From Omphalotus guepiniiformis (Eukaryota > Basidiomycota > Agaricomycetes > Agaricales > Omphalotaceae): 64,000 nt of DNA. This document shows, piece by piece, positions 2-44,267 of the stretch. Numbering within the stretch: position 1 is the stretch's first letter; every line of letters begins with the position of its first letter. The position numbers and the translations under genes were made by a program. The DNA is taken from contig JAQOOI010000021.1 of NCBI GenBank assembly GCA_028554645.1, positions 2,170,001 to 2,234,000 of the forward strand, given 5' to 3'. Below the pieces are notes generated by a model. That model searched no databases and had not been told where the DNA came from. It was given only the letters and a program-made list of their open reading frames with translations.

Positions 2-3000
2 TATGAACCTTCAAGTTCTTCTTATAGATCAAAATGGTTTTGTGTTTTAAAGAAAGATGGAAAAAGTTTGAGATTGGTGCATAGTCTGGAACCATTGAAT
101 AAAGTTACTATACAACATTCAGGAATTCCACCAGCTACTGCAGATGTTGCTAGAAACTTTGCAGGAAGAGCATGTCTAGGAACACTGGACATCTTTGTTG
201 GGTATGATGAAAGGTTGATAGATGATGATTCTAGAGACTTAACCACCTTCCAAACACCATTTGGGCCACATAGACTAGTAAAACTGCCTATGGGTTGGAC
301 TAATTCAGTACCTATCTTTCATGATGATGTTACTTTCATTCTAAGAGATGAAATCCCACATGTGACTATACCTTATGTTGATGATGTACCTGTAAGGGGT
401 CCAGCAACAAGATATGAGTTACCAGATGGCAGATATGAAACTATTCCTCAAAACAATGGTATAAGGAGATTTGTATGGGAACATATGCAAAATATGAATA
501 GAGTGATACAAAGAATGAAGTATGTTGGTGGTACATTTTCTGGTACAAAGGCATTCATTTGTGTAAAAGAAGGCATGGTTGTTGGTCACCGTTGTTTATA
601 TGAGGGTCAAGCACCTTCTAATAAGATAGCAGAAGTGGTTACTACATGGCAAAGATTTGACTCTAAAACAGATGTCAGGGCTTTCTTGGGTACTGCTGGC
701 CAACTCAGACAATTTATAAAGGACTATGCTAAAATTGCTGCACCTTTGCAATATTTGACCAGAAATGTTCCATTTGAGATGAAGGCTGAACAATGGGATT
801 CTGTAGTAGCTCTTAAGGAAGCTATCAGAGTTGCACCTTGTTTGAGACCTATAGACTATATGTCAGAAAATGGGATTACACTTGCTGTAGATACCTCTTG
901 GATGGCAGTTGGATATTATATATACCAAACTGACCCAGAAGATCCTAAGAAGAAGTACTTTAACTACTTTGGTTCAATTACATTGAATGAAAGGGAAGCA
1001 AGGTTTTCTCAACCAAAGAGAGAGCTGTATGGTCTGAAATTAGCTTTAGAAGCTTCTTATTACTTGATTTATGGGTGTAGGAATTTGACTGTGGAAACAG
1101 ATGCTAGCTATATAAAGGGCATGTTGGATCATCCCAGTTCAGGTCCTAATGCAACTATAAACAGGTGGATAGAGGATATAAGGAAATATCAGTTTACATT
1201 GGTACATGTTAAGGGAACTTTACATGGACCAGATGGTCTATCTAGAAGGGGTCCTGGAGGTATAACAACTGAAAGACCACCTGTAAATGAGGAAGACTAT
1301 GTAGATGAAGATAATGGAGAACCATTACAGTTTAGAATGCAAAATGAAGAAGATGATATACCACTAGACTTTGAGTCTTTCAGAGATAAAATAGACAATA
1401 GAGGTGGTTATCTTTTTGAAATGGCAAACTCTGAAAATGATTTTGAAGATGATTTGCAAGAATGCATAGAAGAAGAAAGAATTGCAGAATGTTATAGGAT
1501 TAGAGTTTTAGAAGCTCATGGAATGGTGAAGGGTGCTTTTGCTCAAACTTTAGTAATTCCACCAGGAGATCCAGAGTGGAGTAATTCTCATCCTTATAGT
1601 GAGGTACATAGAAGGGATGAAGGAAAGAAGATGGACAATCTTCTACCTTTAATAAAGGATTGGCATCTAGACAAGAACTCAGCTGTTATTAAAAGTTTGA
1701 ATAAAACTGAAAAGAGATCTTTTCTAAGACAAGCTGTTAAGTTCTTTGTTGATAAAGATGGTAAAATGTATAGAAGGAATGAAGAACTAGATGGTCAACA
1801 CAAGTTGGTTGTATCTAAGGCAAAGAGAATGTACATGATGCATGCTGCACATGACAACTTGGGTCATAAAGGGATGTTTGCAACTAAAGCTGTCATAGAC
1901 AAGAGATTTTGGTGGCCAGATATGGAGAAAGATATTAATTGGTTTGTCCAATCATGTCAGGCTTGTCAGAATAGAAAGTTGGAACTTCTGAAAATACCAC
2001 CCACTCTTACTTATACACCTTCTTTGTTTCAAAAGGTTCATGTAGATGTGTTTAAAGTGTCACCACCTAGTAATGGCTGTTCAAATGTTGTTCATGGTAG
2101 ATGTGCATTGTCTTCTTGGTCAGAAGGTAGAGCATTGAAATCAGAGACAGCAAGGTTAATGGGTGAATGGTTCTTTGAAGACATTATCTGTAGATGGGGT
2201 TGCCCTGATGAGGTTATCACTGATAATGCCCCAGCTATGAGAGCAATGTTGAGATGGTTGGAAGAGAAATATGGTATAAAAGGTATTACTATATCTCCAT
2301 ACAATTCTCAAGCCAATGGGAAGATAGAAAGAGCTCATTTTGATATCAGAACTGCTTTGGCAAAAGCAACTGGTGGAGATTTGAAGAGATGGTACTGGTT
2401 TCTGAAACATGTCTTTTGGGCAGATAGAGTGACTGTTAGAAGAGGTCTTGGATGTTCTCCATACTTCATAGTTACTGGGGCAGAGCCAATACTACCTTTG
2501 GATATTGTGGAATCAACTTGGTTGGTTAAACCTCCAGACAGAATTCTGACTCATGAAGAATTACTTGGATTCAGAGCACAAGCTCTAGCTAAGCATAGAA
2601 CTCATGTGAATGAAATGAGAGAAAGAGTAGATGAAAATAAAAGAAAAGCTTTAATAAAGTTTGAACAAGAATATGGAAATACTATAAAGGACTATGACTT
2701 TAAACCAGGAACTCTGGTTCAAGTCAGGAATACTCAGATTGAAAAGAGTTTAGACAGAAAGATGTATCCAAGATATAAGGGTCCCATGATTGTAATCAGA
2801 AGGACAAAGGGTGGATCATATGTTATTGCGGAAATGGATGGGTCAGTGCTCAAAGAAAAAGTTGCAGCATTTAGAGTCCTACCACATGCAGCCAGATACG
2901 AACCTATACAATTGCCAGACAATATTCATGAACTAATAGACTTGGATAGTAAGCAATTGGAAGCTATGATTGAGGATGAAGATAAAGACTTGGTCAAAAA

Positions 3001-3157
3001 TACAGATTATATTTTTGATGCCATACCCAATCTTAGGCTTGAAGGGGACGATTCTGATGAAGACGACAGTGATTCAGATCTTGGGGACAACTTAGAAGAC
3101 AATGAGGAACCAGATTGGGACGAAAGAGTCAAAACCAGGTCAAAAAGACAGACGTGA
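2..3157 (+). CDS. pol: Ty3/Gypsy Pol (RT-RNase H-integrase), element A, 5' end outside window
   Basis: Reverse transcriptase, RNase H and integrase that copy the element RNA and insert the cDNA. The frame is open from base 2, so the N-terminus (and gag/protease) lies left of the window; 1051 residues are visible. The RT catalytic motif YVDDV is near base 374. The RNase H region (TLAVDTSWMAVGYY) starts near 870. The integrase zinc finger (HDNLGHKG, then CQACQ) lies at about 1850-1970. The DDE residues are in HVDVFK, ITDNAP and NGKIERAHF. The C-terminus is acidic, with no chromodomain. No stop or frameshift is seen. It is clearly homologous along its length to element B pol (38914-42987), from which the domain order was checked. 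Base composition is odd: only three CG dinucleotides in the first 3040 bases, whereas the downstream antisense genes are CG-rich. It ends 157 bases from the convergent antisense gene 2. Confidence 0.95.
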   Translation, partial: YEPSSSSYRSKWFCVLKKDGKSLRLVHSLEPLNKVTIQHSGIPPATADVARNFAGRACLGTLDIFVGYDERLIDDDSRDLTTFQTPFGPHRLVKLPMGWTNSVPIFHDDVTFILRDEIPHVTIPYVDDVPVRGPATRYELPDGRYETIPQNNGIRRFVWEHMQNMNRVIQRMKYVGGTFSGTKAFICVKEGMVVGHRCLYEGQAPSNKIAEVVTTWQRFDSKTDVRAFLGTAGQLRQFIKDYAKIAAPLQYLTRNVPFEMKAEQWDSVVALKEAIRVAPCLRPIDYMSENGITLAVDTSWMAVGYYIYQTDPEDPKKKYFNYFGSITLNEREARFSQPKRELYGLKLALEASYYLIYGCRNLTVETDASYIKGMLDHPSSGPNATINRWIEDIRKYQFTLVHVKGTLHGPDGLSRRGPGGITTERPPVNEEDYVDEDNGEPLQFRMQNEEDDIPLDFESFRDKIDNRGGYLFEMANSENDFEDDLQECIEEERIAECYRIRVLEAHGMVKGAFAQTLVIPPGDPEWSNSHPYSEVHRRDEGKKMDNLLPLIKDWHLDKNSAVIKSLNKTEKRSFLRQAVKFFVDKDGKMYRRNEELDGQHKLVVSKAKRMYMMHAAHDNLGHKGMFATKAVIDKRFWWPDMEKDINWFVQSCQACQNRKLELLKIPPTLTYTPSLFQKVHVDVFKVSPPSNGCSNVVHGRCALSSWSEGRALKSETARLMGEWFFEDIICRWGCPDEVITDNAPAMRAMLRWLEEKYGIKGITISPYNSQANGKIERAHFDIRTALAKATGGDLKRWYWFLKHVFWADRVTVRRGLGCSPYFIVTGAEPILPLDIVESTWLVKPPDRILTHEELLGFRAQALAKHRTHVNEMRERVDENKRKALIKFEQEYGNTIKDYDFKPGTLVQVRNTQIEKSLDRKMYPRYKGPMIVIRRTKGGSYVIAEMDGSVLKEKVAAFRVLPHAARYEPIQLPDNIHELIDLDSKQLEAMIEDEDKDLVKNTDYIFDAIPNLRLEGDDSDEDDSDSDLGDNLEDNEEPDWDERVKTRSKRQT

Positions 3158-3313: not shown

Positions 3314-4631
3314 CTACTCGTCAGTGGTCATGTCGGTGGTAGAGGTAGAGTCTACTGAGTCCATGGAGTCATCTCCATCCACATCGGAACTACCTTTAAT
3401 GGACTTCTTCTTAATAACTAAGGAAAGATTGTCTGCTAGCTTCTGCATGTCACGATAACGAGCACCGTTGGTTTGAACGATGTGTGCGAGGGTAGAACAC
3501 TCCGTACGAAGGCAATTGTGTATAGCCTTAAGAGATTCGAGCGTGAGCTGGTCGTAATCGTAGTATGGAACGAACGCGAGTGTCTTAAGAACACTGGTGT
3601 GAGCCATATCACGTAGGGCCTTCTCAACTATAAAGAATAATGTCAGAATGTATGTGGAATACTATTAAGTGTGTACTTACAGTCAGTTTCTTCACTAAGG
3701 TTTGAAACAGCTGTTTCCAACTTAAGTCGTTTTTGGCCGGATGTCGCAAAGCCCTTCAAAATGTAGTGGTTAGCCTTCCTGTACGCGCCAGAGGATTGAT
3801 CCAATCCAGGAACTGCTGAGTATGGCATGCTTACAACGGCGTGTTGATTCGCGATAAGTTCTGCTTTACGGAACTAGTAACGATTTAATATAGGTCCGGT
3901 TGAAAATAATGAGTGACTTACAGTAAGATTCTTGATGGCACTAGCTTCTTTAGCACTGCTAGAGTCCTTGGTACCGTCAGTCATCTGTAAGAACAATGTG
4001 TCCAAAATGTTAGTACAAAGTATTAATTACCGGGTGGAAATTACTTACAAGTGCTTCAGCGACAGTTTTGTCGAGAGGAGGGGTAATAATGACTTCAACA
4101 TTGTCGTCGTCGTCACAAACAGCCTTTGACTTGGGAGTTTCCTTCCCCTGGAATAAAGTTAGATAATGAATATAAGTCCGGTAGATAATCGTACCTTGCG
4201 TTTCCGATTGTTACCTTCTTCCTTAGCCTTAGCAACTGCTTCAGCAGCAGCAGCGGCATTCTTGAGACGTTCTTGAACCATACGGTCAAGGTGTTTCTGA
4301 AGTCCGGCTACAGAACGAAGAGGCGACATTTGAGGACGAGCCGCCATAACCGCCTGCAGGGCAGTGACGTTGTCTTCAAACTTCTTGAAGAGTTCGTCGT
4401 CGGCAGCTGTAGTAGCCATATCGAGGGGTTTAACCTTAAACTCGAATTATTATTAAACGCCGGACGATTATTAAAAATGAAATAACGTACCAAGAAGTCA
4501 CAAAGTGTCTTAGCGAATTGGAACATCTCTCCATCAGGAACGTTACGAGCACGGGCACGATCAAAGGTGCCGCGACGAAGTTCCAGCAAAGCAAGCCAGT
4601 CTTCTTTGATGAAAGAGGGAGTAGGGGCCAT
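3314..4631 (-). CDS. Antisense accessory gene 2 of element A (six exons, unknown function)
   Basis: Unrecognised family, found here also in element B (37398-38722). My splice model has exons 4631-4491, 4434-4195, 4147-4049, 3984-3922, 3873-3681 and 3627-3314, with GT..AG introns of 47-64 nt, giving 349 residues. The start MAPTPSFIKEDW is the first ATG. Visible features: an alanine/lysine-rich helical stretch ending RKRK at the end of exon 2 (possible nuclear signal), an acidic DDDD run in exon 3, a helical C-terminal half, and a Ser/Thr/Asp-rich tail. The B homologue has the same exon number and phases, 354 residues, and also an RKRK exon end. That conservation argues for a real, selected protein. 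It is convergent with pol and lies inside the retroelement, so it cannot be a host gene caught at the edge. Function is not inferable from motifs. Confidence 0.8.
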
Positions 4632-4799
4632 TGAGAAAGTAAGAGCTTGTGATAACGAGTTATAGAACGAATGAATGTTGGTTCGATGCAATTTACGATC
4701 CTTACATTTGTTCTTTTATAGCTGAAAAATGTATTGTACCTGGCGGAAAATTTTTGAGGTCGAAAAATCGTCTTCAAATTCTCTTAGGGGTATAATGTT

Positions 4800-4834
4800 C
4801 AGCGGGGGCGCTGAAATTTTTGGTTTGGGGGAGA
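4800..4834 (-). promoter_or_regulatory. Inverted-repeat box plus internal polypurine-like tract, upstream of antisense gene 2 (A)
   Basis: CAGCG-GGGG-CGCTG at 4800-4813 is followed by TTTGGTTTGGGGGAGA at 4819-4834. The tract differs by one base from the polypurine tract at the 3' LTR (7781-7796), and a box of the same design also precedes that one. On the antisense strand the module lies about 170-200 bases upstream of gene 2. It is either a promoter module or a second plus-strand priming tract. The rest of 4632-5324 shows no coding sequence, but several CCGG words. Confidence 0.6.
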
Positions 4835-5324
4835 GGGTGACAAGTTCCGGAAAACTTATCAATATATTTATCATCTGGTGTATATTCATCCTTCAAATTA
4901 AAAGAAACATAAAGAATAAAAAGAATAATAAAGCTAAAAGAATGTAATAACAAAGTTGTGGGCATTTCTTAAAATGGAATTTAAGCGCTGAGTAACAATC
5001 CTTCGATTTTGAATTTCAGCCGGACTTTAGAAAGTCAGCTGTGATTTCGATTTCTTAGAGTCTTAAGGTGTAAAATCCTTCATAATTAAGAAGAGGCACA
5101 CAATAAAAATGATAAATTTTGTACACTAAGTGTCTACAAGCAATGGGTAGAGCTTAAACTTAGGTACAGGCAGCGATAAGGTAATGACAAGGTGTAAAAT
5201 AAATGTTCGATGCGACGCAGCACGACCTACAAAGAAACGAGACCGTCGAGATAAGCGTAAAGAAAGTAATTCAAAAGAAGACGCTGGGGCACGAAATAAT
5301 GAATGAAGGAAGAAAGTCCAGTGC

Positions 5325-7231
5325 CTAAGCTTCTGGACTTACCTCCTCAGATTCCCCAACGCCTGCACTTTGATTAGCGTTTTCTTTGGCCTTATCAAGG
5401 TACGCTTGATCCACTGCGATCGGTTCTCCTTGGTCGTTGACGTCGACGGCGCTGCGAAGACGGAAGTCGTCAACCTTCCAACCGAGCGCGGCAGCCAATA
5501 GCTCCATCTGAGTCTTGTTCGCAAGGAAGTCGGCGTCAGGTTCGAGAGAACGAAGGACGCTACGAGCATCGATGCAAGCATCGCGAAGACGCTGCTGCTC
5601 GGTGTGGATTAACGAACTAAGCCGTTTGGCAGACTCGCGTGCTTGATTCGACTGTCGAACCAGACTATCGAACTCGGTATGAAGCTGTAGAAGATTGGAA
5701 ACGTGCGAGTTGATAACTAGAAAGTTATTAGAAAGATATAATGAAAGGAAAAGGATGAGGACTTACCTGCAGGGTGTTGACGCCCTTCTTGGTATGCTAG
5801 GTCCCGAACCTTCGCCATGCTGTCAAGGGAATACTGGAACGAACATGGGCGTTTCCACTTCTCGCAGACGCTGCACTTATTATCCTCTCCGCGCCAGACG
5901 CACGGTTGACTCAAATTGCCAGTTAAACAGCCAGCGCAGATCGGGTTGAGACTGTAACCCTGGAGAGACCGATTGACAGAGACGAGGTCCTTGAATTTAT
6001 GCCGCAAGCCGGTGGGATCGACGAATTGGAAAGGGATAGTGGCAGCGGCAGAGGCGAAACGTGAATCTCGTGTGAGCGATTTTCGGCTTCCAGTAGGCTG
6101 TTTTAAAAGGTTAATAAAAGGAAGAAAGATGAAAGAAACGATACTTACTGCGTTAGTAGCGTAAGTAATCTCGAACGGATTGGCGGTAACAGTGTCGACA
6201 ACTTCATCGTCTTCACCGGCACTTGCTTCCGTAGCCTAGACAAAGATGAAATAAATAAAAGGAAAATAAGAGCAGTAAAAAGAATACGGACCTCGGGTTT
6301 AATCTTCTTGGGTCTACCACGACCGCGAGCAGGAGCAACCGACTCGGGTTTCCTAGTTGCAGAACGCGTGACGATCTTGGAAGTAGAAGGAGAAGGGTCG
6401 CGTTTCGCCTTCTTTTTAGGAGGGGAAGCGAGCTCGTCTAGCTGCTCGGAATCGTCGGAGTCGGTGGAAGAGGGCGAGTATTCATCCTCGACCGGCGGAT
6501 TTTCAGTAAGAACCTTCACAGGAGGCGCAACTGAAGATGTTTCGGTATCGAGAGGAGCGGAAAACTCAGGCAAGGAATCGAATTGGAAGGAGGCTTCGTT
6601 CTTGAAGTCGTAAGAGTCCACGTCCGGTAATTGTCGAGAAAGAGGAAAAGGCTATAAAGAGAATTAGTAAAGAAAAGGGAAATATAATGAGGGAGCTACC
6701 GAAAGTTTCAGCTGGCGAAGTCGTTTCGTAGTCGCTTTTGGGATAACGAGAGGTTCGAAGTCTTTGTACTCCTTACACTCCTTGTCGCGAAGTAACCAAG
6801 CAAGACGAGAAATAGACCACCAGAAGCAACGGGCGTAATAAGGCAGATCCGTCTCGTTAGCCCAGTCGTCGAAGAAATGAGACTAGAAGGTAGAGATAAA
6901 AATATTAATATAAGGAACAAAGAAAATAAAGAAAATGTCTTACCCAGTCGAGGTATGCGTATGTTAGAGCCTCCAGGACACGGGCACTGGGATAATCGTT
7001 CTCGTAGTCCGGAGATTCGAAGTTGGCGATATAAATTTCGGAAAGTTGGGACTGAATTTTTGTTAACGACTTTTGTAACATATGGTGTCGAACAAGGGGA
7101 AGAGAGACTGGCTCGAAAGAAGGGACAGGATTCTTTGATTTAGCGACGCGTTTTTGAGAGCTTGTTACTTCGACGGTTGGGGCCGTCTTTTTGCTACCGC
7201 GTTTGTCGTCTGTTGGTAGTTTGGGCGCCAT
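5325..7231 (-). CDS. Antisense accessory gene 1 of element A: six-cysteine (Zn2Cys6-like) protein
   Basis: My splice model has exons 7231-6944, 6882-6700, 6651-6292, 6235-6149, 6097-5767 and 5716-5325, with introns of 48-61 nt, giving 546 residues. The start is MAPKLPTDDKR; an ATG-initiated upstream extension (from about 7456) is less likely because B lacks it. Exon 3 encodes an acidic Ser-rich stretch, then basic PPKKKAKR and an AT-hook-like RGRGRPKK. Exon 5 encodes C-x2-C-x8-C-x8-C-x2-C-x6-C (CAGC...CSVC...C). Exon 6 encodes a long helical, coiled-coil-like region and the motif AAALGWKVDDF. B gene 1 has the same six exons, cysteine cluster and GAGLGWDMSVLD at the matching place. Known: six cysteines in this layout bind two zinc ions in fungal Gal4-type DNA-binding proteins. 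Inference: a nuclear DNA-binding protein made from the antisense strand of the element. Confidence 0.82.
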
Positions 7232-7761
7232 TGGAGCAAACGAAGAAGGGAGAGAATGAAGCCAACACAGAAGAAGAATAGAACGATTAAAAGAAGTAGA
7301 ATGCAAGTCAGAAGAGAAAGAACGAAGTTCCGGCTCGCTCTGTAAATTTTGAGAGTCGGAGGGAGAGGAATCATAAGAAGAAAGAAAAAGCGAAGTTGAG
7401 CCCATATATAATGAAGTGACGGGCGTGAAAAGCAAAAAGATGTGAATAAAAGACATGACAACGTATAAGGTAATAATGACTCACCTATGATGGGAAACAG
7501 CTCGTGTTGAGGGCCGATATTCCAGAAAAACTTTAAAATGAGCGAGTTAGGAAAACACACTTCTGAGTTCGTGAGGCCAAAGCTGTTTGTATTCAGTTCC
7601 GGCAGTTCGGCAAAAAGTCACGTGATCGTGCCATAGCGGCTTTCGATCCGGTGTTTGAATAATGGAATATTGACCGGATGAATAATGTTGAAGGAAAATT
7701 TTATTGAACTCTTAACAACTGCTGTACTATAAAATAAAGTCAGTAGATTGGCTGAAGAATT
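7232..7761. other. Non-coding leader between antisense gene 1 and the 3' polypurine tract (A)
   Basis: About 530 bases with no convincing conserved reading frame. It is the counterpart of 34244-34717 in element B and probably holds the promoter and 5' leader of antisense gene 1. Confidence 0.5.
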
Positions 7762-7796
7762 GACCGGGGACGGTCAAGATTTTAGTTTGGGGGAGA
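7762..7796 (-). promoter_or_regulatory. Inverted-repeat box and 3' polypurine tract of element A
   Basis: GACCG-GGGA-CGGTC (7762-7775) lies just before TTTAGTTTGGGGGAGA (7781-7796), which abuts the LTR start. The polypurine tract primes plus-strand DNA synthesis in this superfamily. The box is an everted CCG-N4-CGG, a layout used by Zn2Cys6 factors, and the identical 14-mer (as reverse complement) occupies the same place in element B (34230-34243). On the antisense strand it is upstream of gene 1. Confidence 0.7.
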
Positions 7797-9173: not shown

Positions 9174-9400
9174 GCGGGTTTCGCCGAAGTCTGACATGGC
9201 CATCACATGCGGATGTAAATGTATTGACTGGCGATCAATTGAGAAAAGTTTTGCCTAATGGCAGTCTGTGAGACGTGATATTGTGATATTGAACAGTATG
9301 AAATGAGCTTCTATGACAAATCTGCTTGTAATAATTGTATCTAACTCAATTTGGCCAATCTGGTACGATCGAGGACGATCTTATTTTACTTTGGAGGAGA
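9174..9400 (+). other. 3' internal remnant of LTR element R
   Basis: Sequence between the A LTR and the R LTR, ending in a purine-rich TTGGAGGAGA that looks like the polypurine tract of an R element read on the + strand. A appears to have inserted into this element. No coding sequence seen. Confidence 0.5.
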
Positions 9401-19136: not shown

Positions 19137-19526
19137 TGTTGAATGAAGTGCTAGAACACTTGTAGATACTATACAAATACTGTACATATCATTAGAAAGT
19201 CCTTCAAGTACATATAATACTATACTAATGACTTTAATATCTATTGTAGATAGTTATACCATGTATGTAGGGTCATTCTGGAGTGTTTAGAGCGCGCGCA
19301 AAAATGTGGACACTCATTTTCACGCCTCATGCGCGGCCTGACACAATAGGACCAAACAATATGTAAATCCTTACATGTCTGGAGAAATCTAAGACACTTG
19401 GAAAGCAATTCTTGTGCATTAAGCTACTATTACAACGCTTTAGTGATCTCAGTGAACTGTAATTGAACTCTATTCATTGTGTCTGATCAGTGTATCACTG
19501 GTAGTGCATTGTCTTAGATTCTAACA
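19137..19526 (+). repeat. Solo Copia LTR (390 bp)
   Basis: TGTTGAATGAAGTGC ... GATTCTAACA, same family as the LTRs of D and E, in E orientation. Flanked by AATGC (19132-19136, 19527-19531). Confidence 0.92.
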
Positions 19527-32716: not shown

Positions 32717-34209
32717 TAATAGCAGCGTAATGAGCACTCTAAGACATAGGAACTCGTCTAAACTCAAAGGTTGCCTTGTAAAAGCGAGTGTAGTCTGGCG
32801 TTGGCAAAGATTCCGCACGCAGAAAACTGACTAAAGTCGAGCTAGACTGTTGGAAAGACTAACTGAACTGTAAGATCACCGTCTAGACCCTTCGACGAGT
32901 ACCAGAAACAGCAAACAGACAGACACAGACAGACAGACACAGACAGACAGACACAGACAGACAGACAGACAGACAGACAGTTCAAACACAACAGATGTTC
33001 AGATATTTAGCACTCTATTAAAGCACTGCAATTCCTAATAGTCCGCCTCTACCAGCTCGAAGAACCGGGGCCTGACGTTCACAATCAAGAGGCCTTCTGC
33101 GATTTAACGCTCTAGAAGATACGTAAAGTTCTCCAATTTGGCGGGCAGTCGTAACCTGGGGCGCTCGACCCTATACATGACAGTATATGTACTCTACTGC
33201 TTGTAAGTATTTCATAAATAGATAGAAAACTGAGTGGAGTAATTAAAAGGAACAGAGGGATAACATCGAGTATAAAATGGATATAAACAGAAACAATATG
33301 ACTGAGTTGGGTAAGTAGGCACGTCTAGAGGGTAATTATGTGCAGTTCTTGGGTATATATGTGTAAGTATTATGTTTTAGTGATGTTTTTGGTACATCTA
33401 GACCCTTCTTATCATGCGCTCGAGCCATTCTAAACGAACTACTCCTATGCATTTCGTTATTATTCATCTCCGTAACTGTTTTACAGTGTACTTATAGGGG
33501 CGCCGAGGGCAGTTTCTAGTCATTTATCCCGTCGGGCTTCCGTATTTTCTCCTATTTCGACATCTAGACCCCATAGCACCTCGTAGATATACCAATATCC
33601 AGCGCTCGAAGGTCAATTCTGTCATTACTTTACTAATAAGTTATTATACAGTCATCGAGACTGATCATTTTCATAGCTTTGACCATCTAGTATCTCGGAA
33701 CGGAATCGTCGATCATATATTTCCGATCATAAAGCGTTATCTCCAGTATATCATCAATCTGCAGGTTCTAGGAGGTCGGCTAAGTTCGAACAAACCATTT
33801 TGATGGCTCGGCGATACCTCTAGCTTTGTCCTTTCGACATTATCGAGGCTCATGAGGCTATTACGCCTGTGTGTGTGTAGTTTCTTCCTTCCTAAGTCCC
33901 GTGGATTACACAGATACTTGAATAGCGACTTCCAGACGAAGGGCTCTTTGCCAGGCAGGGTGGGTCTGACCATACTGTACAGTCTCGCAGCAGGTAGTTA
34001 CTTCGCCGAAGGTCTAGAGGCATATCAGCCATAAGGTCTTGATGCATACTCGTACATCGTAGTCCTTTCACTTCGAGCCTTTAACTATTCGTGTTCTATG
34101 TTTTAGCTAGCACTATGGGACATAGTCTAGCCCTTTATTCCCATCATATTCACAGTAGAAATCGTTTAATTTCAGGTATTTCAGGTGTGTATGCGTTTTC
34201 AGCGCAACA
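32717..34209 (-). repeat. 3' LTR of element B (1493 bp)
   Basis: + strand TAATAGCAGCG ... GCGCAACA (TGTTGCGC ... CTATTA in element sense). It contains an AGAC/ACAC microsatellite near 32919-32980 and several CTAGACC words. Confidence 0.93.
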
Positions 34210-34243
34210 TCTCCCCCAAACCAAATCTAGACCGTCCCCGGTC
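34210..34243 (+). promoter_or_regulatory. 3' polypurine tract and inverted-repeat box of element B
   Basis: On the + strand TCTCCCCCAAACCAAA (34210-34225) abuts the LTR and is followed by GACCG-TCCC-CGGTC (34230-34243). The same pair, in the same order, lies upstream of both antisense genes of B and of A. It primes plus-strand DNA in one sense and precedes antisense gene 1 by about 475 bases in the other. Confidence 0.7.
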
Positions 34244-34717
34244 TGGTGATCGGTCAGTCATATACCCAAAGATACATTCTAAAGCTTCGCAGACAGCCTG
34301 TTGATTATATAATACTTATTCACACACATCTCAGAGTTCGCCGAAGCAGTGGTACACTGTTCATTGCTTTTTGCCGGTCTATGCCGATCATCAAACTTCA
34401 AACTCCGACCAAAATACTCTCGGCCAGTTGTTTGCCTTCGGCAATTGCCGTAGGTTCTTTTCAGGCAAGTGACTTTCCGTCTCTTTTCCTCTTTCACATT
34501 TCTTATTCAGTTTCTTGCTTCTCTATTCTTTCTTTTCACGCATCTCTCAGCCTTTCACTGGTCCGTGCGCCGTGGGAACGTGGTCAGGTGAGTCGTTCCA
34601 TAAGTAAACGGACTTCAACTTTTTCACGCCCATTCTTCCTTTCTCTCTATTTTTCACTCAGAGTGGCTCTAGCCTTCTGTTTTTCTCTATACATACTTGT
34701 TCTTTTCTTTTCTTCTA

Positions 34718-36638
34718 ATGGCGCGAACTACCGGCAAAGCTTCCAAAGGGAAGGGCAAAGCAGCCTCTTCTTCTCAAATTTCGGCAGTGGCCAAGAAAAC
34801 TCGAGCCGGTCGAAAGACCGCGCAGATCAACCCTCACGAACAAGCCAATGAAGTCATCGCATGTATTGTCGACGTCTATCGTCGTTACTTTGATAAACCA
34901 CGAAAGAATCCCCCCAAGGTCTCAGAAATGACCAAGGCCGTGGAAAGTGCCACTCCCTTCATGGTATGTTGTATTTCTTATAGTTTTAATCTTTCATTCT
35001 TACATTTTCTCTTCTAGGATACTCTCTTTGAGCACGTCGACTTCGACATCGAGGATTTCTGTCCGCATGTGCGCCCGGTGTGGCTAGCTTTAGTGCGACT
35101 TTGCAACCCCCTCGAATCTCGACTCCCATCTCTTCACAAGACTGGTTGGTATATCTCGAAGGACGATCGACAGGAGAAACATAGTCTCGAGCCTGTAAGT
35201 CCTTATTCCACCGTAATCTTTTTAATCTTATTCAATATAATTTCCTAGTTTCACGACTTCGATACCATCCTCGGCGACGATTGTGGCGACAACGATACCG
35301 TTCTTAGCAACTCAGAGGATGAGGTCCTCGAGTCTGACGACGAGTCCGTCCAAGTCAAGCCTGAGGTTCGTTTTCTTCTTCCTATTCCCTTCAAATTTCT
35401 TTCTTATATCCTTTCATATTCTAGCCTGTTCTGACTTCGAAAAAGCGAGCGCTCGAGCTGCTAGAAGACGACGACGACATGGATCTCTTCTCTTTTAAGA
35501 AGCCTCGCGCGTCCACTCCTTCCAAAACACTCAAGACTGGTCCACCCGTTCGCGCAGTGAAGCCCAAACCGAAGCCCAAGCCTAAGGCAAAGGCCCCGAC
35601 TCCCAAAGAGCCATCTCCTGTTGCTAGCGAAAGGTCGCCGACCCCTGCTCCTGCTTCATCAGCGAGGGCTGGTCCTTCTCATCAGGTCTCCGAGGCCGGC
35701 CTCTTCACACATCCTGCTAGCGACACGGTCTTCAACCTTGCCGACTTGCTCCATGCAACTCGAACCATCGACGCAGTAAGTCTCTTTCTTATTTATTTTA
35801 TTACTCTTTCATTTATCTTTTATAGCTCACTGGCAGCTTGCCATGTACGCGATGTACCGCAGCTCACGCAGCAGAGAAGTGTGTCCCGCCCGAAATACAG
35901 AGCACCTCCTACAAATGCGCCGTCTGCTTCAAAAGCAGGCAACCTTGTTCATGGACCCTGACGCCGGCTCGTGCCCTCGAGATGCGAAATACGATCTACG
36001 GGTTGGCTCGTCAAGGTTCTCATAGTAAGTTTAATCATTTATTTCTTTTTATTTAACATCTTTTCTCATTTCCTCCTTATTCAGACCTCGGCGCAGAAGT
36101 TATTGGTCTCGTCGAGAAGATCTCTGTATACGACCAACTTCGCCGCAGCGTCTTGGACCTCGCCGACAACGCCAACAAGCTTCGCGAGTCCATCGAGCGG
36201 GACCAGGAGCACCTTCGTGGTTCAGTCACCGATCCTACCCTTCTTTTCAACATTCTTCATCGTAACGACCCTTCATTCAAGGACGAAATCGAAGATTTGA
36301 AGATGATAGGCGCGGGCTTGGGCTGGGACATGTCGGTTTTGGATCGAGACTCGAGCTTGGTGAAAACGGAGACTGGTTTTCAGATCCAACCGAGTTCGTC
36401 GCGCCTTCCCCTCGACTTCTCTAAATCCGACACTCGCAGCACCATCGAGCGCATGGTAACCTCGGCTCTTGTGCCTCTTCGCTCTTCGGCGAATGCTTCA
36501 TCTTCCCGGGTACCTGCGTCGGCTGGTTCTTCCTTTCCATCCTCCCTCCCTACCATTACGACACTCAACACCGCCCGTTCCCCGGTGGAGGAGGAAAGCG
36601 TTGGTCGGATCCTGGCAGAGGATAGTCCGGAGAGGTGA
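34718..36638 (+). CDS. Antisense accessory gene 1 of element B: six-cysteine (Zn2Cys6-like) protein
   Basis: My splice model has exons 34718-34963, 35018-35194, 35249-35365, 35425-35775, 35826-36024 and 36085-36638, with introns of 50-60 nt, giving 547 residues (A homologue 546). The start MARTTGKASKGKGK is basic. Next come a helical domain (DTLFEHVDFDIEDFCPHVRP), an acidic stretch, and a Lys/Pro-rich tract (VKPKPKPKPKAKAPTPKEP). Exon 5 encodes C-x2-C-x8-C-x11-C-x2-C-x6-C (PCTRC ... KCAVC ... C). Exon 6 is helical (VEKISVYDQLRRSVLDLADN), then GAGLGWDMSVLD, then a Ser-rich tail. Exon number and phases match A gene 1, which supports the model. It is opposite in strand to gag-pol. Inferred role: nuclear DNA-binding regulator. 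Confidence 0.85.
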
Positions 36639-37150: not shown

Positions 37151-37187
37151 TCTCCCCCAAACCAAAAGAAGTTCAGCGTCCCCGCTG
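37151..37187 (+). promoter_or_regulatory. Internal polypurine-like tract plus inverted-repeat box (B)
   Basis: TCTCCCCCAAACCAAA (37151-37166) is identical over 16 bases to the tract at the 3' LTR. It is followed by CAGCG-TCCC-CGCTG (37174-37187). It lies 211 bases upstream of antisense gene 2. Element A has the same module at 4800-4834. Confidence 0.68.
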
Positions 37188-37397
37188 CATATCTCGGCTA
37201 GTCCTTAGTTAAGTCCAGGGTGCCTTAATCAGTCGGGCATGTTACTTCGTCGAAGGGACCAGGAGTTCCGCTTTCAGTCAGAAAAGTATAAAGGAGGGTC
37301 GCCGAAGGTGGGTCCAAGTTATCAGTACACTTTAAGACCTTCAACCTGCATTCTCGACCTTACTTTCGTCTTCTTCTCGTTCATATTTCATCGTCAC

Positions 37398-38722
37398 ATG
37401 GCTCGAGGATCCAACAAGACCTGGCCCGAGAGGGATCAATGGTTAAAGGAGACTCAAGAGGCCATTACTGCCGCTCAAGCCGTTCAAGCCTTCCCCAAAG
37501 CCAGTCCCAAGCTTCTAGGACCAGTCGTGACGGCTCTAGCCGATCATATGGTTTGTTTATTATATTCTTCAGGCTTCGTCGAGCTCATATTTCTTCATAG
37601 TCAAAGCCTTTGAATGCCAAAGTGGTGGCCAAGGATGATATCGCCTTTGATACCTTCCAGAAAGGACTCAACACTGTGATAGCTATTACAGAGATTGATG
37701 GGGTAAATCGTCCCTACCATCTAAATGGGCTCGAGGAGTTCTTTGCCAAGCTCGAGGTGCTTCGACAGCCCACTCGCAAGCGCAAGGTAACTCTCCTCTT
37801 TCCTCATTAATCTTTACAAGCTTCATTCTATACTCTTCACAGAACGTTAAATCTCCTCTTATCATCGAAGACGATGATGATGATGATGAGATCGAGTTCG
37901 TCGGAGGTCGGATTGCTTCTACTCCAGTAAGTATCCATATTTCTTAGGTCGAGACTCCGACTTGACCTAAGTTTAGGACTATAAAGCCGGACTCGCAGCC
38001 GCATTGGGTCTTTCTGCATCCATGCATGCCCCTTCTCAAGAATTAAGCCTTCCACCTGGCCTCAAGTTCAACAAGAAGGTCAGGGTAAGTGCGGTGTCTT
38101 CTTATCCATCATATTATAACTTCGCCGAACGTTCAGGACGTCGCGAATCGTTCTTCTACTCTTTCATTGGCCCTCGGCGATGTACCTGGAATGGATGTAC
38201 GTTCTCGTTCCTACCTCAAGGCCATGTATTACTTATCAGTTGCTCAGGATAACATTGCAGCTGCCAATGGCAAGCGCATTCGCCTCGAGCAACCCATTTC
38301 CGATCTTCGTGAGGATATTGAGGGTAAGTAAGCATGGGTTCTCCCTGTCTCGACCCTACTGATCATATTGACCAGAGGATAAGACCCTACGAGAAGCCGC
38401 CATCGCTACAACTTTCCGTCATATCGCGCTCACTCCATATCTCGAACTGCCCAAGCTTAGCGTCGAAGCTTTACGCTCAGTTCTCAATTTCCTTCGTACC
38501 GAACAAGTCACTCTTCAGCATGCTGTACATTTCCATGCCAATCAATACCAGTTCGTTGTTAAACAGATGGACAACATTCAACGAGAGCAATTTAGTCGTC
38601 TCTCAGTCGAGGACAAGCAAACCGCTGATTCTTCATCTTCGGAGACCCCTCAAGATGCTACCATGGAGGAGGCTGGGTCTAGCTCAGCTGATACCACAGC
38701 TACCAACTCTAGCAGTGCCTAA
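37398..38722 (+). CDS. Antisense accessory gene 2 of element B (six exons, unknown function)
   Basis: My splice model has exons 37398-37550, 37601-37786, 37843-37926, 37977-38084, 38137-38323 and 38376-38722, with introns of 50-56 nt, giving 354 residues. Start MARGSNKTWPERDQW. Exon 2 ends with basic PTRKRK, exon 3 has an acidic EDDDDDDE run, exons 5-6 are helical (KAMYYLSVAQDNIAAANGKR; LSVEALRSVLNFLRTEQVTL), and the tail is Ser/Thr-rich (SSSSETPQDATMEEAG). It is homologous to A gene 2 and to the relic at 23563-25491. It ends 191 bases from the convergent pol. No known domain recognised; the helical, NLS-like and acidic pattern suggests a nuclear partner of gene 1, which is inference. Confidence 0.82.
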
Positions 38723-38913: not shown

Positions 38914-41900
38914 TTAAGTACCACTTCGACGCAATAGAACAAACTGTTTATTGCTTCTAGTCCGCACTCCAGTGATCTCTTCAGGTTCTGCGCTTAAATC
39001 CCTCTCAGGAGAAGGATGATCATCTTCTTCATCAGAATCATCTTCATATTCCTCATCTCGAGGCATTCTTAAGTTCGGAATGGAGTCAAAAATGTAATCT
39101 CGACTTTGTTCGTCGTAAGTATCCTCATCTTCGTTCACCATACGTTCTAACTGTTCTGCAGTAAGGTCTATGAGGTCTAGCACGTTCGTAGGTAGGTCTA
39201 TAGGCTCATATCTTGCAAAATGCGGCAGTACGCGAAAGGCAGCAATCTTTTCTTTAAGTACCGAGCCATCCATTTCAGCAATATTGTAGGCACCACCCTT
39301 AGTCCGTCTGATGACAATCATAGGTCCTCTATACCTTGGATACATCTTCCTGTCCAAGCTCTTCTCAATTTGAGTGTTTCGAACTTGTACTAGAGTTCCA
39401 GGTTTGAAATCATAGTCTTTTATTACATGTTCATAATCTTGTTCAAACTTCTTCATAGTTCTTCTTTTCTCTTCGTCGACCCTGGAAATCATGCCCATAA
39501 CATGAGTTCTATGCTTTGCCAAGGCTCTAGCCCTGTAGCCGATCAATTCTTTGTAAGTAAGGACTCTATCTGATACTTCTACCAACCAAGTTGATTCTAT
39601 AAGGTCTAGAGGCAGTATTGGTTCTGCTCCAGTTACTAAGAAGTAAGGAGAACATCCAAATCCTCTTCTAGTTGTTACTCTGTCTGCCCAAAGCACATGT
39701 TTGAGAAACCAGTACCAACATTTAAGATCACCTCCCGTTGCTTTTACTAAAGCTTGACGGATATCAAAGTGTGCTCTTTCAATCTTTCCATTGGCTTGAG
39801 AATTATAGGCTGAGATACGAATCCCTTTAATCCCATACTTCTCTTCCAGCCATTTCAACATTGCAATCATGCTTCTAGCATTATCAGTTACCACTTCTTG
39901 AGGGCAACCCCATCTACATATTATATCTTCAAAGAACCATTCGCCTAAGGCTCGAGCTGTCTCATCTCTGATTGCTCGTCCCTCTGACCAAGAAGATAAA
40001 GCACATCGGCCATGTACAACGTTCTTACAGCCATTACTAGCCGGAGATACTTTGAATACATCCACATGTACCTTCTGGAACAGAGAAGGGGTGTGAGTAA
40101 GGGTAGGTGGTATTTTCAATAGCGCTAGAGCTCGATCTTGACATGCCTGACACGTTTTCACGAACCAGTTGACATCTCGCTCCAGTTCTGGCCACCAGAA
40201 CCTCTTTTCTATCACAGCCTTCGTAGCATACATTCCTTTGTGTCCCAAATGATCATGAGCACTATGCAGGATATACATACGGCGTCCTTTCTCAACTATT
40301 AGCTGATGTTGTCCACCAACTTCATCATTTCTTCGATACATACGTCCTTTCTTGTCGACGAAGTATCGAGACGCCTTCGAAAGAAATTTCTTTCGAGCTC
40401 GAGCATCCATCTCATCCAGCATATCCGATTCAGGATGCATTAAGAACTCTTTTATTCTTGGTAGCAGTCGATCTAGCTCAATCCCTATGGTAGTTCTATG
40501 TTCTTCCATATAAGGATGATCATGTTCCCATTCTTCTGTCGATTCAGGAGCTACTAGAACCTGTGCAAACTGGTCTAGAGTCTTTCCTTGTTCAAATAGT
40601 ATGTGTTCTCGCCAGTAGGCGAATCTTCGTTCTTCTTCAATTAATTCTTGAATATCATCTTCGAAGTCTTCTACTGACAAGGCTAGACCCTGTAAGTATC
40701 CACCTCTAGAGTCTATTTCATGCTTAAAGTCTTCAAAGTCATAAGGGCCCTGCTCATTCTCATCTTCCTGACGAAACCGCAATGGTTCCCCATCATCTTC
40801 ATCTAGATAATCTTCCTCTTCAGCAGGTAATCTCTCTGTTGGTTCACTACCCGGTGGTGGTCTAGATAGTCCATCAGGTCCATGTATAGACCCCTTGATA
40901 TGTACCAATTCAAAGTGATACTTTCTTATTTCTTCAATCCAACGATTAATAGTTGCATTTGGGCCACTACTTGGGTTATCTAACATCCCTTTTATGTAGC
41001 TAGCATCCGTTTCTACAGTTAGATCCCTACAACCATAAGTTTGGTAGTAAGTATGGGCTAGCGCGAGCTTGAGCCCATATAACTCTCTCTTAGGCTGTGA
41101 GAACCTTGCTTCTCGTTCATTTAATGTTATAGATCCAAAGTAGTTATAAAACTTCTTCTTAGGATCTTTAGGATCTCTTTGGTATAAATAATATCCTACA
41201 GCCATCCATGATGTATCCACTGCTAGAGTAATGCCGCTAGACAACGAATAATCAATTGGTTTCAATGCAGGAGCATTTCTAATGCCTTCTTTTAATAGCT
41301 CGACGGCTTCTAACTCTTTTTCTCCTATCTCAAAGGGAACTTGTGAACTAGTCAACCTCGTGAGGGGTCTAGCCTTCTTTGCATAGTCTTTAATGAACAT
41401 CCTGAGTTGTCCTGCAGTCCCCAAGAATGATTTAACGTGTGTACGCTTCGTCCATTGAGTTGCATCCCATGACAAAATGGTCTTAGCCATCTTTTCTTCA
41501 GGTAATTCACCCTCATACGAGACTCTATGTCCCACAACATTTCCTTCTGCGCAGCAAATGAATGCTTTAGGTCCTGAGAAGGTTCCTCCAGCATGTTTCA
41601 TTCGTTGAACAATTCTATTCATATTTTGCATGTGTTCCCATACAAATCTTCTAATTCCACTGTTCTCAGGAATTGTTTCGTATCCTCCACCTTCGAGCTC
41701 ATATCTAGTAGACGGTCCTTTCACTGGAACATCATCTATATAGGGTCTCGTTATGTGTGGAATTTCTTCTTTCAATATATAAGTGATGTCATCATGATAG
41801 ATTGGTACTGAGTTAGTCCAACCCATTGGTAGTTTTACAAGTCGGTGAGGGCCAAAAGGAGTTTGAAACGTCGTCAAATCCCTCGATCCCTCATCTACGA

Positions 41901-42987
41901 GCCTTTCATCATAGCCTACAAATACATCTAGCAGTCCAATACAAGATCTGCCTGCAAAGCTTCTAGCTATATCAGCCGTAGCAGGAGGTATGCCTGAGTG
42001 TTGAATTGTGACCTTATTTAACGGTTCTAGACTGTGTACTAGCCGTAAACTTTTGCCATCTTTCTTCAAAACACAGAACCATCTGGATCTATAAGAGGAG
42101 CTCGAGGGTTCGTAGACCCCAGAATCAATCTTATCTTTAATTATTTTGCATACATCTCCATAGATCCCGGGCGGAATAGGTATATTCCTCTCGACCCATG
42201 GAGTATGTGGTATAACAGGAAATTTAACAGGTGGAAAGAACTCTGTCTTGAAAGTTCCCCCTTCTGAAGCTTCCCATGCAAAACCTTTCTCTTGTACCTT
42301 CATTAAGTGATGTACTAGCTTCATTTCTTCAGGCCATAAGAAGTCTTCATCATGATTCTTCTCAATAATAGCTTTTCTTTCTTCATTATAACGTTCTCCA
42401 GGTGTGAAGTCTGGTGGATTTGGTGACAAAGTCGGCATCCCTTCTAGCGGGTCACCAGTTATGTGCCTTTCTATCCTGAACTCTTCTGGAAGCGTAGTTT
42501 TTACTGGTTTCACTTTTATTGCCACAGGTTTGTACTTACTGCCGAATACTGCAAACGGTTTTCGAAATCTAGCCTTACTTCCACGAGGTAGGATCCTACA
42601 GTGTAAGTTTGGCATTCGCCGAACCATTTTCTCAGTTCGAGCAGCCGTATTGAATACAGTAGCTGCCTCGAGACCCTCATACGCAGGTCTCGAAGGTACT
42701 TTCTCATCCTGTACTCTAGCTTCACGCCAAGTACAATATACCTTGCAATTATCTTCGGTTATTTCCTTCTTCATGTAGCTTTTAAGCATAAGGGCAGCCT
42801 TGGGATCACTCTCTTCAATGCTAGCTCGAGATGCATATACATATGCCTCAGCCTTCTCATTATTAGAGAATGTCTCCTCATCAGGCAGTCTATACCCAGT
42901 TATTTCATATCTACCATCTTTTCCTAGGCCAATACTTACAGCAACCTCTCCCTGATGGCCTGTCAGATCTTCGAGGATTGAAAATTT
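38914..42987 (-). CDS. pol: Ty3/Gypsy Pol (RT-RNase H-integrase), element B
   Basis: Open on the - strand from the frameshift site at 42987 to the stop at 38914; the first ATG (42789) is inside the frame and probably not used. The N-terminal part shows GHQGEVAVSIGLGKDG and ITGYRLPDEET. RT motif PYIDDVPVKGP, RNase H TLAVDTSWMAVGYY, integrase zinc finger HDHLGHKG ... CQACQ, DDE residues in HVDVFK, VVTDNARS and NGKIERAHFD, and an acidic C-terminus without chromodomain. Intact and close to element A pol. Expressed by -1 frameshift from pro (see 42981-42987). It faces antisense gene 2 tail-to-tail. Confidence 0.95.
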   Translation of the reverse strand, partial: KFSILEDLTGHQGEVAVSIGLGKDGRYEITGYRLPDEETFSNNEKAEAYVYASRASIEESDPKAALMLKSYMKKEITEDNCKVYCTWREARVQDEKVPSRPAYEGLEAATVFNTAARTEKMVRRMPNLHCRILPRGSKARFRKPFAVFGSKYKPVAIKVKPVKTTLPEEFRIERHITGDPLEGMPTLSPNPPDFTPGERYNEERKAIIEKNHDEDFLWPEEMKLVHHLMKVQEKGFAWEASEGGTFKTEFFPPVKFPVIPHTPWVERNIPIPPGIYGDVCKIIKDKIDSGVYEPSSSSYRSRWFCVLKKDGKSLRLVHSLEPLNKVTIQHSGIPPATADIARSFAGRSCIGLLDVFVGYDERLVDEGSRDLTTFQTPFGPHRLVKLPMGWTNSVPIYHDDITYILKEEIPHITRPYIDDVPVKGPSTRYELEGGGYETIPENSGIRRFVWEHMQNMNRIVQRMKHAGGTFSGPKAFICCAEGNVVGHRVSYEGELPEEKMAKTILSWDATQWTKRTHVKSFLGTAGQLRMFIKDYAKKARPLTRLTSSQVPFEIGEKELEAVELLKEGIRNAPALKPIDYSLSSGITLAVDTSWMAVGYYLYQRDPKDPKKKFYNYFGSITLNEREARFSQPKRELYGLKLALAHTYYQTYGCRDLTVETDASYIKGMLDNPSSGPNATINRWIEEIRKYHFELVHIKGSIHGPDGLSRPPPGSEPTERLPAEEEDYLDEDDGEPLRFRQEDENEQGPYDFEDFKHEIDSRGGYLQGLALSVEDFEDDIQELIEEERRFAYWREHILFEQGKTLDQFAQVLVAPESTEEWEHDHPYMEEHRTTIGIELDRLLPRIKEFLMHPESDMLDEMDARARKKFLSKASRYFVDKKGRMYRRNDEVGGQHQLIVEKGRRMYILHSAHDHLGHKGMYATKAVIEKRFWWPELERDVNWFVKTCQACQDRALALLKIPPTLTHTPSLFQKVHVDVFKVSPASNGCKNVVHGRCALSSWSEGRAIRDETARALGEWFFEDIICRWGCPQEVVTDNARSMIAMLKWLEEKYGIKGIRISAYNSQANGKIERAHFDIRQALVKATGGDLKCWYWFLKHVLWADRVTTRRGFGCSPYFLVTGAEPILPLDLIESTWLVEVSDRVLTYKELIGYRARALAKHRTHVMGMISRVDEEKRRTMKKFEQDYEHVIKDYDFKPGTLVQVRNTQIEKSLDRKMYPRYRGPMIVIRRTKGGAYNIAEMDGSVLKEKIAAFRVLPHFARYEPIDLPTNVLDLIDLTAEQLERMVNEDEDTYDEQSRDYIFDSIPNLRMPRDEEYEDDSDEEDDHPSPERDLSAEPEEITGVRTRSNKQFVLLRRSGT

Positions 42988-44267
42988 CCATCTTGTGGAC
43001 TTCTTTCCTCTTCTGCAGCTTTTTGGGTAGCTGGTGTAAGTTTTTCTTCTCCTTCAGGCTTCGGTCCAATACCTCTGCCTCGTTCATATGTTCCCATTGT
43101 GCAGGTCATGCCAGAATTAGGGTCTCGAATCGTTAATTCTTGACTTCCATCCTTATTTGTCTTAATATTACTTTCTGTTAAAACATCGAAGGGTCTTCCC
43201 AACAGAACTTTATATGGAGCTTTATCCATCACATGAATCTGCATATAAACGACTATTTCACCAAAGGTAAACGGTACGTTCCTAGCTAGACCCCTGGTTG
43301 GGCTTAGCTGTCCACTAGCACTTTGCATATGGATAACAGTCTTTGGATCCCAGGCTAGACCTAGTCCCATTGCTATATCCGTGTCCATTGATACTATTTG
43401 AGACCCACTGTCAAGTATACACTCGACTGGCCCTTGTTTATTAATATCAGGAAAGATAACTCGCAGACTATCACTTGGTCTGGCTACAATGATAATCTTT
43501 CCTCGTTCAGATGGCGGAACATCTTCGAGATATTGTTCTACAACATCTACATGGACTAAAGATCCTGTTTGCAAGCCGCTCGAGCCTTCGAGGACCTGTA
43601 CAAAGCAGTCTCCCCATGCTAGATCATCAATATCCACTACTTGAGTGTCATATGGCAAAGAGATAGAATCCTCAGGTAGATCAGTGTCTTCTGGGTTTTC
43701 CTCGTCTCTAATCTCTTGTACAAATGCCTTTAGAGGCCTCTTATATACTCGACTATTCTTAGTCTTTCTATTCAATATTTTCTGCAAAGTAGGGGAAATA
43801 GCAATTACTTCTTCCATACTTATAGGTATTTCACTCTTTAATATCTTCGTTGCAACTTCTTCAGCAACTCCAGGCCTGTACACGCCACTTTGTAGTTTGT
43901 ATTCAGGTCCCTTAGGCAAATCAAATGTTACTTTCTTCTTCGCCGAGCCTCGAGACTCTTCTATATCCACACTAGGTGTTCTAGCGGTCACTGGGGACGT
44001 TTCTAGACCCTCCTTTGGTGGTTGGATTCGTCTCTCAATAGGCTTTATGTTATCAAATGGTCTTTTATTTAAGTTTTTCGTTTCCGGGACGTTATGCGCG
44101 GGCGCCTCTTTGCCTAATTCGGGCTCAGGGGTTTCCAACGACTCATCCGTCATGTTTATGGGTTTATACAAGTGTCGATTAAAGTTCTTAGGACGCTCTA
44201 GCACCACTTCGAGGCGTCTAGACGTCTTTCCAGCATTATCTTCCTCCGGAGCTTTGCTGGGAACAGG
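42963..44267 (-). CDS. pro: Protease ORF of element B, main part (split by element C)
   Basis: Aspartic protease in its own frame between gag and pol. The ATG is at 52693, 8 bases after the gag stop; the first 48 bases (52693-52646) lie on the far side of element C, and the rest is here, 450 residues in total once C and one GCTAG copy are removed. The catalytic motif is ILDSGSQIVSM (near 43400-43430), with a long acidic, Pro-rich N-terminal region (PIERRIQPPKEG, KKKVTFDLPKGPEY). The frame runs to 42963 and overlaps pol, with a slippery site 15 bases before the stop. A separate protease ORF between gag and pol is unusual among Ty3/Gypsy elements. C disrupts it, so B cannot now make protease from one RNA. 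Confidence 0.88.
   Translation of the reverse strand, partial: PVPSKAPEEDNAGKTSRRLEVVLERPKNFNRHLYKPINMTDESLETPEPELGKEAPAHNVPETKNLNKRPFDNIKPIERRIQPPKEGLETSPVTARTPSVDIEESRGSAKKKVTFDLPKGPEYKLQSGVYRPGVAEEVATKILKSEIPISMEEVIAISPTLQKILNRKTKNSRVYKRPLKAFVQEIRDEENPEDTDLPEDSISLPYDTQVVDIDDLAWGDCFVQVLEGSSGLQTGSLVHVDVVEQYLEDVPPSERGKIIIVARPSDSLRVIFPDINKQGPVECILDSGSQIVSMDTDIAMGLGLAWDPKTVIHMQSASGQLSPTRGLARNVPFTFGEIVVYMQIHVMDKAPYKVLLGRPFDVLTESNIKTNKDGSQELTIRDPNSGMTCTMGTYERGRGIGPKPEGEEKLTPATQKAAEEERSPQDGNFQSSKI
42981..42987 (-). promoter_or_regulatory. -1 ribosomal frameshift heptamer A-AAT-TTT (pro/pol)
   Basis: In the pro frame the bases read GGA-AAT-TTT-CAA; the heptamer A AAT TTT fits X XXY YYZ. The pol frame is -1 relative to pro and is open here. 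The pro stop (42965-42963) follows 15 bases later. Confidence 0.75.

Follow-up and report, generated by a model that had tools for sequence, protein, structure and literature searches.

The 64,000-nucleotide (nt) stretch of the Omphalotus guepiniiformis genome analyzed here (the window; contig JAQOOI010000021.1, C20:2170001-2234000) holds two Ty3/Gypsy elements, A and B, which each carry, between pol and the 3' long terminal repeat (LTR) and on the strand opposite to pol, a pair of spliced genes hereafter called gene 1 and gene 2. That this antisense gene pair is real and part of the element is near certain, and its place and orientation are conserved across four related families (A, B, E, and F). 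Both genes are coding and under constraint, and backbones that closely resemble each other carry deeply different types of gene 2. What surprised us most is the exchange of gene 2, which was absent from the original prediction made on the window, as was the duplication of a module formed by a hairpin and a polypurine tract (PPT). The best reading of these features, mechanism included, is in our opinion that the two genes probably encode nuclear trans-regulators of their own element family, a view that we hold with moderate confidence.

Element A extends from a 5' LTR located in locus L009 (C20:2164463) to a 3' LTR at window positions 7797-9173 (+ strand), both LTRs being 99.5% identical over 1377 nt. 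Despite this identity, the five bases that flank them (L009 4458-4462 and window 9174-9178) differ, possibly as a result of recombination between elements. Its gag, an open reading frame (ORF) of 604 amino acids (aa), and its 5' LTR lie upstream of the window, in L009, and the C-terminal part of its pol (RNase H and integrase) is found at 2..3157 (+ strand; 1051 aa, frame open at the window edge). On the - strand, gene 1 spans 4631-3314 (exons 4491-4631, 4195-4434, 4049-4147, 3922-3984, 3681-3873, and 3314-3627; 349 aa) and gene 2 spans 7231-5325 (exons 6944-7231, 6700-6882, 6292-6651, 6149-6235, 5767-6097, and 5325-5716; 546 aa), with a Cys cluster in exon 5. The gene arrangement of element B is the mirror image of that of A, with the 3' LTR at 32717..34209 (- strand; 99.5% identity to the 5' LTR at 54691-56187), gene 2 at 34718..36638 (+ strand, six exons, 547 aa), gene 1 at 37398..38722 (+ strand, six exons, 354 aa), and pol at 38914..43053 (- strand, a frame of 1379 aa).

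The gene models bear out the claim of the original prediction that these pairs are antisense genes of six exons with matching phases and near-equal product lengths. All four genes have the phases 0,0,0,0,1, GT-AG introns of 47-64 nt, and coding frames without internal stop. The models were made ab initio with stronger splice scoring and with gene ends taken from the original prediction, the exons of A gene 2 being set by hand; the initial ab initio models were partly different. The product of A gene 1 has 349 aa with the intron-1 acceptor TTTAAG and 351 aa with an alternative acceptor, and intron 4 of A gene 2 (51 nt) is stop-free, so that read-through is possible. Between A and B, protein identity is as low as 30% for gene 1 and 24% for gene 2 and synonymous divergence (dS) is saturated, so the introns common to both elements are old. 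Exons and phases are also identical in the further gene-2 types A2 and B2 described below. The six-exon structure is stop-free in 12 of the 17 A-backbone copies modeled for gene 1 and 7 of the 14 modeled for gene 2, and in three of four B-backbone copies for each gene. In family E (L032), exon matches (tblastn) to both genes are collinear, and gene 1 is modeled as seven stop-free exons encoding 342 aa; the gene 2 model is provisional, with one in-frame stop that has no counterpart in most other copies among the matches listed. Family F (L041) has a gene 1 of 340 aa with seven exons as in E and collinear gene-2 matches. A TATA box stands 89-111 nt upstream of the gene-1 start codon in all four families (no chance rate was computed), and for gene 2 at -179 in A and A2 and at -29 in B2; none was found in B gene 2, where it was looked for. 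Gene 1 and gene 2 share the same phases and are each followed by a hairpin-PPT module, and the idea that they are mutual duplicates was rejected on a profile comparison probability of 0.3%.

Searches of the genome (42.5 Mb, 80 contigs) place the pair in the same context throughout. Among the matches listed, to which all locus counts of this paragraph refer, we picked by hand the last-exon matches as gene-1 loci (31 for A, 35 for B, and 61 for E/F; 127 in all), a set in which matches to further exons at these loci and the relic fragment of the window are not included. With the C-terminal part of pol as query, 111 matches were scored out of 384 candidates, and gene 1 lies antisense to 106 of these 111, within 2.5 kb on the 3' side. 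Conversely, 106 of the 127 gene-1 loci have an antisense pol within 2.5 kb and none (0/127) has one on the same strand within that distance. Gene 1 is found within 4.5 kb and on the same strand at 106 of 124 gene-2 loci (A/A2, 25 of 32; B/B2, 33 of 37; E/F, 48 of 55), and 18 are without a neighboring gene-1 match. Homologs are thus not mainly free-standing, and copy number, orientation, the introns in common, and the selection data below all support the earlier claim that the genes belong to the element rather than being trapped host DNA. Two gene-2 last-exon matches (80%), at C35:194840 and C31:124392, have open frames and lie on contigs without a gene-1 match; they are either relics or separate genes.

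Purifying selection acts on both genes. The ratio of nonsynonymous to synonymous divergence (dN/dS, NG86 method), proposed in the original prediction as a check, is well below 1, at 0.086-0.238 across the eight pairs with a dS of 0.05-0.2. For gene 1, it is 0.15 for A versus L020 and versus L022, 0.14 versus L023, 0.11 versus L015, 0.09 for B versus L031, 0.13 for E versus F, and 0.32, on a dS of 0.004, for B versus L029. For gene 2, values within types are 0.24 (L020 versus L026), 0.18 (L020 versus L023), and 0.17 (L029 versus L031), and those between types, where dS exceeds 2 and is saturated, are 0.11 (A versus L020), 0.08 (A versus L023), and 0.14 (B versus L029), the ratio of A versus L026 being undefined. 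Between A and B the ratios, likewise saturated, are 0.34 for gene 2 and 0.26 for gene 1. In all 15 pairs compared, differences are most frequent at the third codon position, exceeding those at the first by a factor of 1.9 to 6.5, and in windows of 60 codons dN/dS is mostly low or undefined, with a peak of 0.63 in gene 1 of A versus B (residues 206-265).

Copies that share the A backbone (pol ends 95-98% and gene 1 92-98% identical) carry a gene 2 of either the A type or the A2 type, which both have six exons and are 67% identical in protein sequence. Similarly, L029, L030, and L031 have a gene 1 that is 97.8-99.8% identical to that of B, and a gene 2, termed B2, with only 63-64% identity in DNA (59% in protein for L029, with saturated dS). 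In 100-nt windows, the identity of A2 copies to A is 45-82% in gene 2 and mostly above 90% in pol, gene 1, and the 3' flank; that of B2 to B is mostly 45-73% across most of gene 2 and returns to 90-100% outside. In L028, identity is lower throughout. The divergence of A2 begins, on the start-codon side, at the ATG, the next 180 nt being 75-100% identical, and on the other side at window position 4840, directly past the internal PPT, in four of five A2 copies (L020, L021, L023, and L026). A tree of gene 1 (16 copies) needs four changes of type, three of them forced by well-supported branches, and the type label is not significantly clustered on it (73-80 of 500 shuffles were as low), whereas on a tree built from the 3' flank and the start of the LTR (15 copies) two changes, one of them forced, are enough and the label is clustered (1-2 of 500 shuffles). 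Together, the two trees indicate that gene 2 was exchanged with respect to gene 1 and has remained closer to the 3' side. In family E, last exons among the matches listed are 77-99% identical to the query for gene 2 and mostly 98-99% for gene 1, which is perhaps a milder form of the same type divergence.

The internal PPT belongs to a module of which A, B, E, and F each have two copies, one separating gene 1 from gene 2 and one ahead of the 3' LTR. The module consists of a short hairpin (loop GGGA or similar), a spacer rich in A and T, and TTTGGGGGAGA or a closely related sequence. In element A (+ strand), the internal copy (4799..4840) comprises a hairpin at 4799-4814 and a PPT at 4824-4834, and the 3' copy (7761..7796) a hairpin at 7761-7776 and a PPT at 7786-7796; in element B (- strand), the 3' copy is at 34210..34244 and the internal one at 37151..37188. 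The exact TTTGGGGGAGA was not found in L031 and was found once only in L028. When eight hairpin segments, cut by hand in register, were compared with 500 shuffles, 91.7% of cells paired and 10 cells were changed on both sides, and no shuffle reached either value or the covariation score; as for two other measures, 266 of the 500 shuffles reached the value for pairs changed on both sides and 117 that for further pair types. The central PPT of lentiviruses is likewise a second internal tract and serves there as a plus-strand primer site; here, by difference, a hairpin precedes each tract, the tract lies near the 3' end, and the priming role is predicted.

The gene 2 protein has a conserved N-terminal part, acidic and basic low-complexity stretches, and six conserved cysteines followed by a helical stretch. 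Two CxxC pairs are present in the Cys cluster of eight out of eight sequences, and this region is nearly identical between A and A2, the two types that alone contain RGRGRPKK, which we take to be an AT-hook-like stretch. Aligned over 29 columns with the Zn2Cys6 domains of the same genome, the Cys-cluster profile gives an hhalign probability of 63%, against 9% for the reversed control. Gene 2 is nevertheless not put forward as a true Zn2Cys6 factor, as PF00172 was not matched; compared with the six-cysteine spacing of that family, its first Cys loop is longer. The PF00172 matches at C4:35985, C13:5002, C15:181233, and C1:2717 have equal or near-equal scores and are probably copies of a repeated gene. 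The gene 1 protein is conserved in its C-terminal part and contains basic as well as acidic stretches; basic, lysine-rich stretches are found in both proteins. A structure model of gene 2 exon 5 was poor (mean predicted local distance difference test score 43.5), and in PDB sequence searches gene 1 had no match and gene 2 only weak ones to coiled coils (best E 0.51). Protein searches returned no homolog for gene 2 (7997 candidates scored) or gene 1 (7995), a weak negative as unspliced gene calls would hide six-exon proteins and lengths were limited.

Some short words are specific to the noncoding DNA of a family. GTTAGATAC is strongly enriched in that of E, where it occurs nine times against a shuffle mean of 0.02, with five occurrences in gene-1 introns, and is absent from E exons, from the 408 nt of E pol examined, and from A and B; in F, it occurs four times against 0.045 by shuffle. 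CCGGA is moderately enriched in the noncoding DNA of A (15 versus 2.7); in element A, CCGG is counted four times in gene-1 introns, six in the LTR, eight in spacers, and seven in exons, and is absent from gene-2 introns and from the 3157-nt part of pol. The enriched words of B are mixed with a tandem ACAGACAG repeat. Such words are compatible with a family-specific regulator without being proof of one, and we regard them as a lead only. In L032 and L041, the quasi-palindromic GAGTATCTAACTC, which includes a possible branch point CTAAC, is repeated in the LTR, spacers, and gene-1 introns.

This lineage of large Gypsy elements without chromodomain encodes, in addition to gag and pol, two accessory proteins whose spliced genes lie on the opposite strand, and we propose for it, from sequence comparison, the following model. 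The antisense orientation would preserve the introns, as the sense genomic RNA reads them backwards and would not be spliced there before reverse transcription. Both proteins would enter the nucleus and there act on elements of their own family in trans, gene 2 as a zinc-cluster-like, probably dimeric DNA-binding regulator that may activate or de-silence the element, and gene 1 as its partner. Gene 2 would be swapped between co-packaged genomes during reverse transcription; a plus-strand start at the internal PPT would favor one edge of the exchanged segment, and gene 2 would then move with the 3' side, as expected from the clustering of types on the 3'-flank tree. Novel types may be favored by host silencing or by interference between elements, which would maintain the diversity. 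By analogy with phage immunity, one may tentatively go further and see in gene 2 a specificity or immunity module whose diverged types are balanced and shuffled by recombination during reverse transcription, bordered on the left by the internal hairpin-PPT, a possibility to which we give distinctly less credit.

Several observations weigh against this model. The left edge of divergence is unclear in L028, that of B2 stands about 150-210 nt away from the internal PPT, and the 3'-flank tree is compatible with a single origin of the swap. The LTRs of A and A2 are alike though their gene 2 differs, and the types therefore do not track LTR sites. In Pfam profile searches, neither product reached the cut-off of any family; PF00172 in particular was not matched by the gene products and, among the matches listed, none of its matches falls at a gene-2 locus. 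The first Cys loop of gene 2 is longer than in Zn2Cys6 domains, and the aligned part is the second half only. One window of gene 2 (A versus L020, residues 1-62) has a dN/dS of 0.62, and many windows are without defined dS. As for the family words, they were spotted first and then tested, except in F; in a one-mismatch test, the top words were only at or slightly above shuffle maxima; and the E motif in gene-1 introns contains CTAAC, a possible branch point.

Among other explanations, gene 2, with gene 1, may serve copy-number control, repressing elements of the same type and ignoring other types as phage repressors do. Deeply diverged types on shared backbones and their repeated exchange fit this idea, but operators should then change with type, yet LTRs and flanks are alike, and A and A2 hardly differ in the Cys region, where DNA binding would reside; we find it unlikely. 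A direct role in the life cycle, for instance in bringing the preintegration complex into the nucleus or in selecting the integration site, has been proposed for plant antisense ORFs in the part of PMC7264820 available to us and agrees with the basic, lysine-rich stretches of both proteins. Alone, it leaves unexplained why only gene 2 has swapped types, and we rate it lower still.

The effective product may also be the antisense RNA rather than the proteins, pairing with sense RNA and limiting transposition. Convergent genes would indeed yield overlapping transcripts under leaky termination, but constraint at the protein level is evident from the low dN/dS, the distribution of changes over codon positions, and the conservation of splice sites, which makes this explanation very improbable. 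Finally, that the genes are trapped host passengers could be argued from the 18 of 124 gene-2 loci without adjoining gene-1 match, two of which (C35:194840 and C31:124392) have none on their contig. Against this stand the presence of gene 1 beside 106 of 111 pol matches and the occurrence of the genes in four families, and we consider this reading scarcely credible.

HBZ of human T-cell leukemia virus type 1, a spliced antisense gene as those described here, has a nuclear regulatory product; the likeness is one of description only, HBZ being a retroviral basic leucine zipper protein. Known parallels had been called only loose in the original prediction and are in fact closer, since Grande, RIRE2, Retand, PvRetro13, and Boty, an ascomycete element, are described, in the part of the source available to us, as having antisense ORFs in the interval that separates pol from the 3' LTR (PMC7264820). 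As here, the antisense ORF is present in most copies of maize Grande (gene23), rice RIRE2, and bean PvRetro13, and the Grande gene has its own promoter and a nuclear product (PMC7264820, same part); no spliced pair is described there for these three elements, which sets them apart by description and not by sequence. Boty, cited in the same article, is a fungal element with an antisense ORF in the same place, but its host is an ascomycete and it can be compared by description only. The Retand lineage (TRP28) is likewise characterized by a coding region that lies antisense between pol and the 3' LTR and whose product is predicted to bind DNA, and the word intron is absent from the accessible text (PMC11963269). 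Elements A and B differ from Retand by two multi-exon genes and swapped gene-2 types and have no TRP28 match: the Transposase 28 domain (PF04195) was not detected in gene 1 of A, B, or E or in gene 2 of A, A2, B, or B2. The VANC proteins of Arabidopsis VANDAL, element-encoded, diverging, and acting on their own noncoding motifs, offer a working model as far as the consulted parts of PMC5735166 and PMC10398659 describe them; VANDAL are DNA transposons, and the likeness is by analogy only. In the literature on antisense genes of fungal LTR elements, with subscription journals mostly uncovered, we found no basidiomycete case like A and B and no spliced pair with a swapped gene, and the available part of a paper on Laccaria bicolor elements contains neither "antisense" nor "additional ORF" (PMC3411680).

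Antisense accessory ORFs were thus already known from plant Gypsy elements and Boty, and the spliced pair with a swapped gene is, as far as the literature consulted shows, what is new here. The function of antisense accessory genes has been a long-standing question since their first description, for which these families offer a natural experiment, with many recent copies, constrained multi-exon genes, and one gene swapped on similar backbones. Should the types differ in target or partner, anti-silencing, self-regulation, and integration would become directly testable against one another. Moreover, a retrotransposon could retain introns in genes that run antisense to its own RNA, in which they would escape splicing.

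Regarding their class, A and B show the Ty3/Gypsy features of paired LTRs, PPT, and RNase H and integrase zinc-binding domains. Neither RVT_1 nor rve was matched at E<=0.001 in A pol (partial) or B pol, which points to a divergent reverse transcriptase in this lineage. A protein search with pol gave 1976 matches, the best named one being from Lentinula edodes (66%), and no relatives of pol were found in viral_contigs and genome_contigs. A chromodomain after the integrase is absent from A and B pol and present, at 46611-50537, in a nested Gypsy element (44270-52646; LTRs 99.6% identical) that has inserted into the gag region of B, which it interrupts.

The original prediction had further invoked a third relic at 23563-25491 as evidence for conservation. 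A gene-1 fragment of about 50 codons does exist (25341-25490, - strand, 82% identity to B), in a relic element with a pol remnant at 21130-23697 (+ strand), but most of the interval is a solo LTR of A type (23901-25283, - strand; 98% identity to 7797-9177) inserted in this fragment, and the relic adds little. LTR-like repeats of about 390 bp from another family, in several copies 90-99% identical, are also found in the window at 19137-21111, 31604-31993, and 59977-62718.

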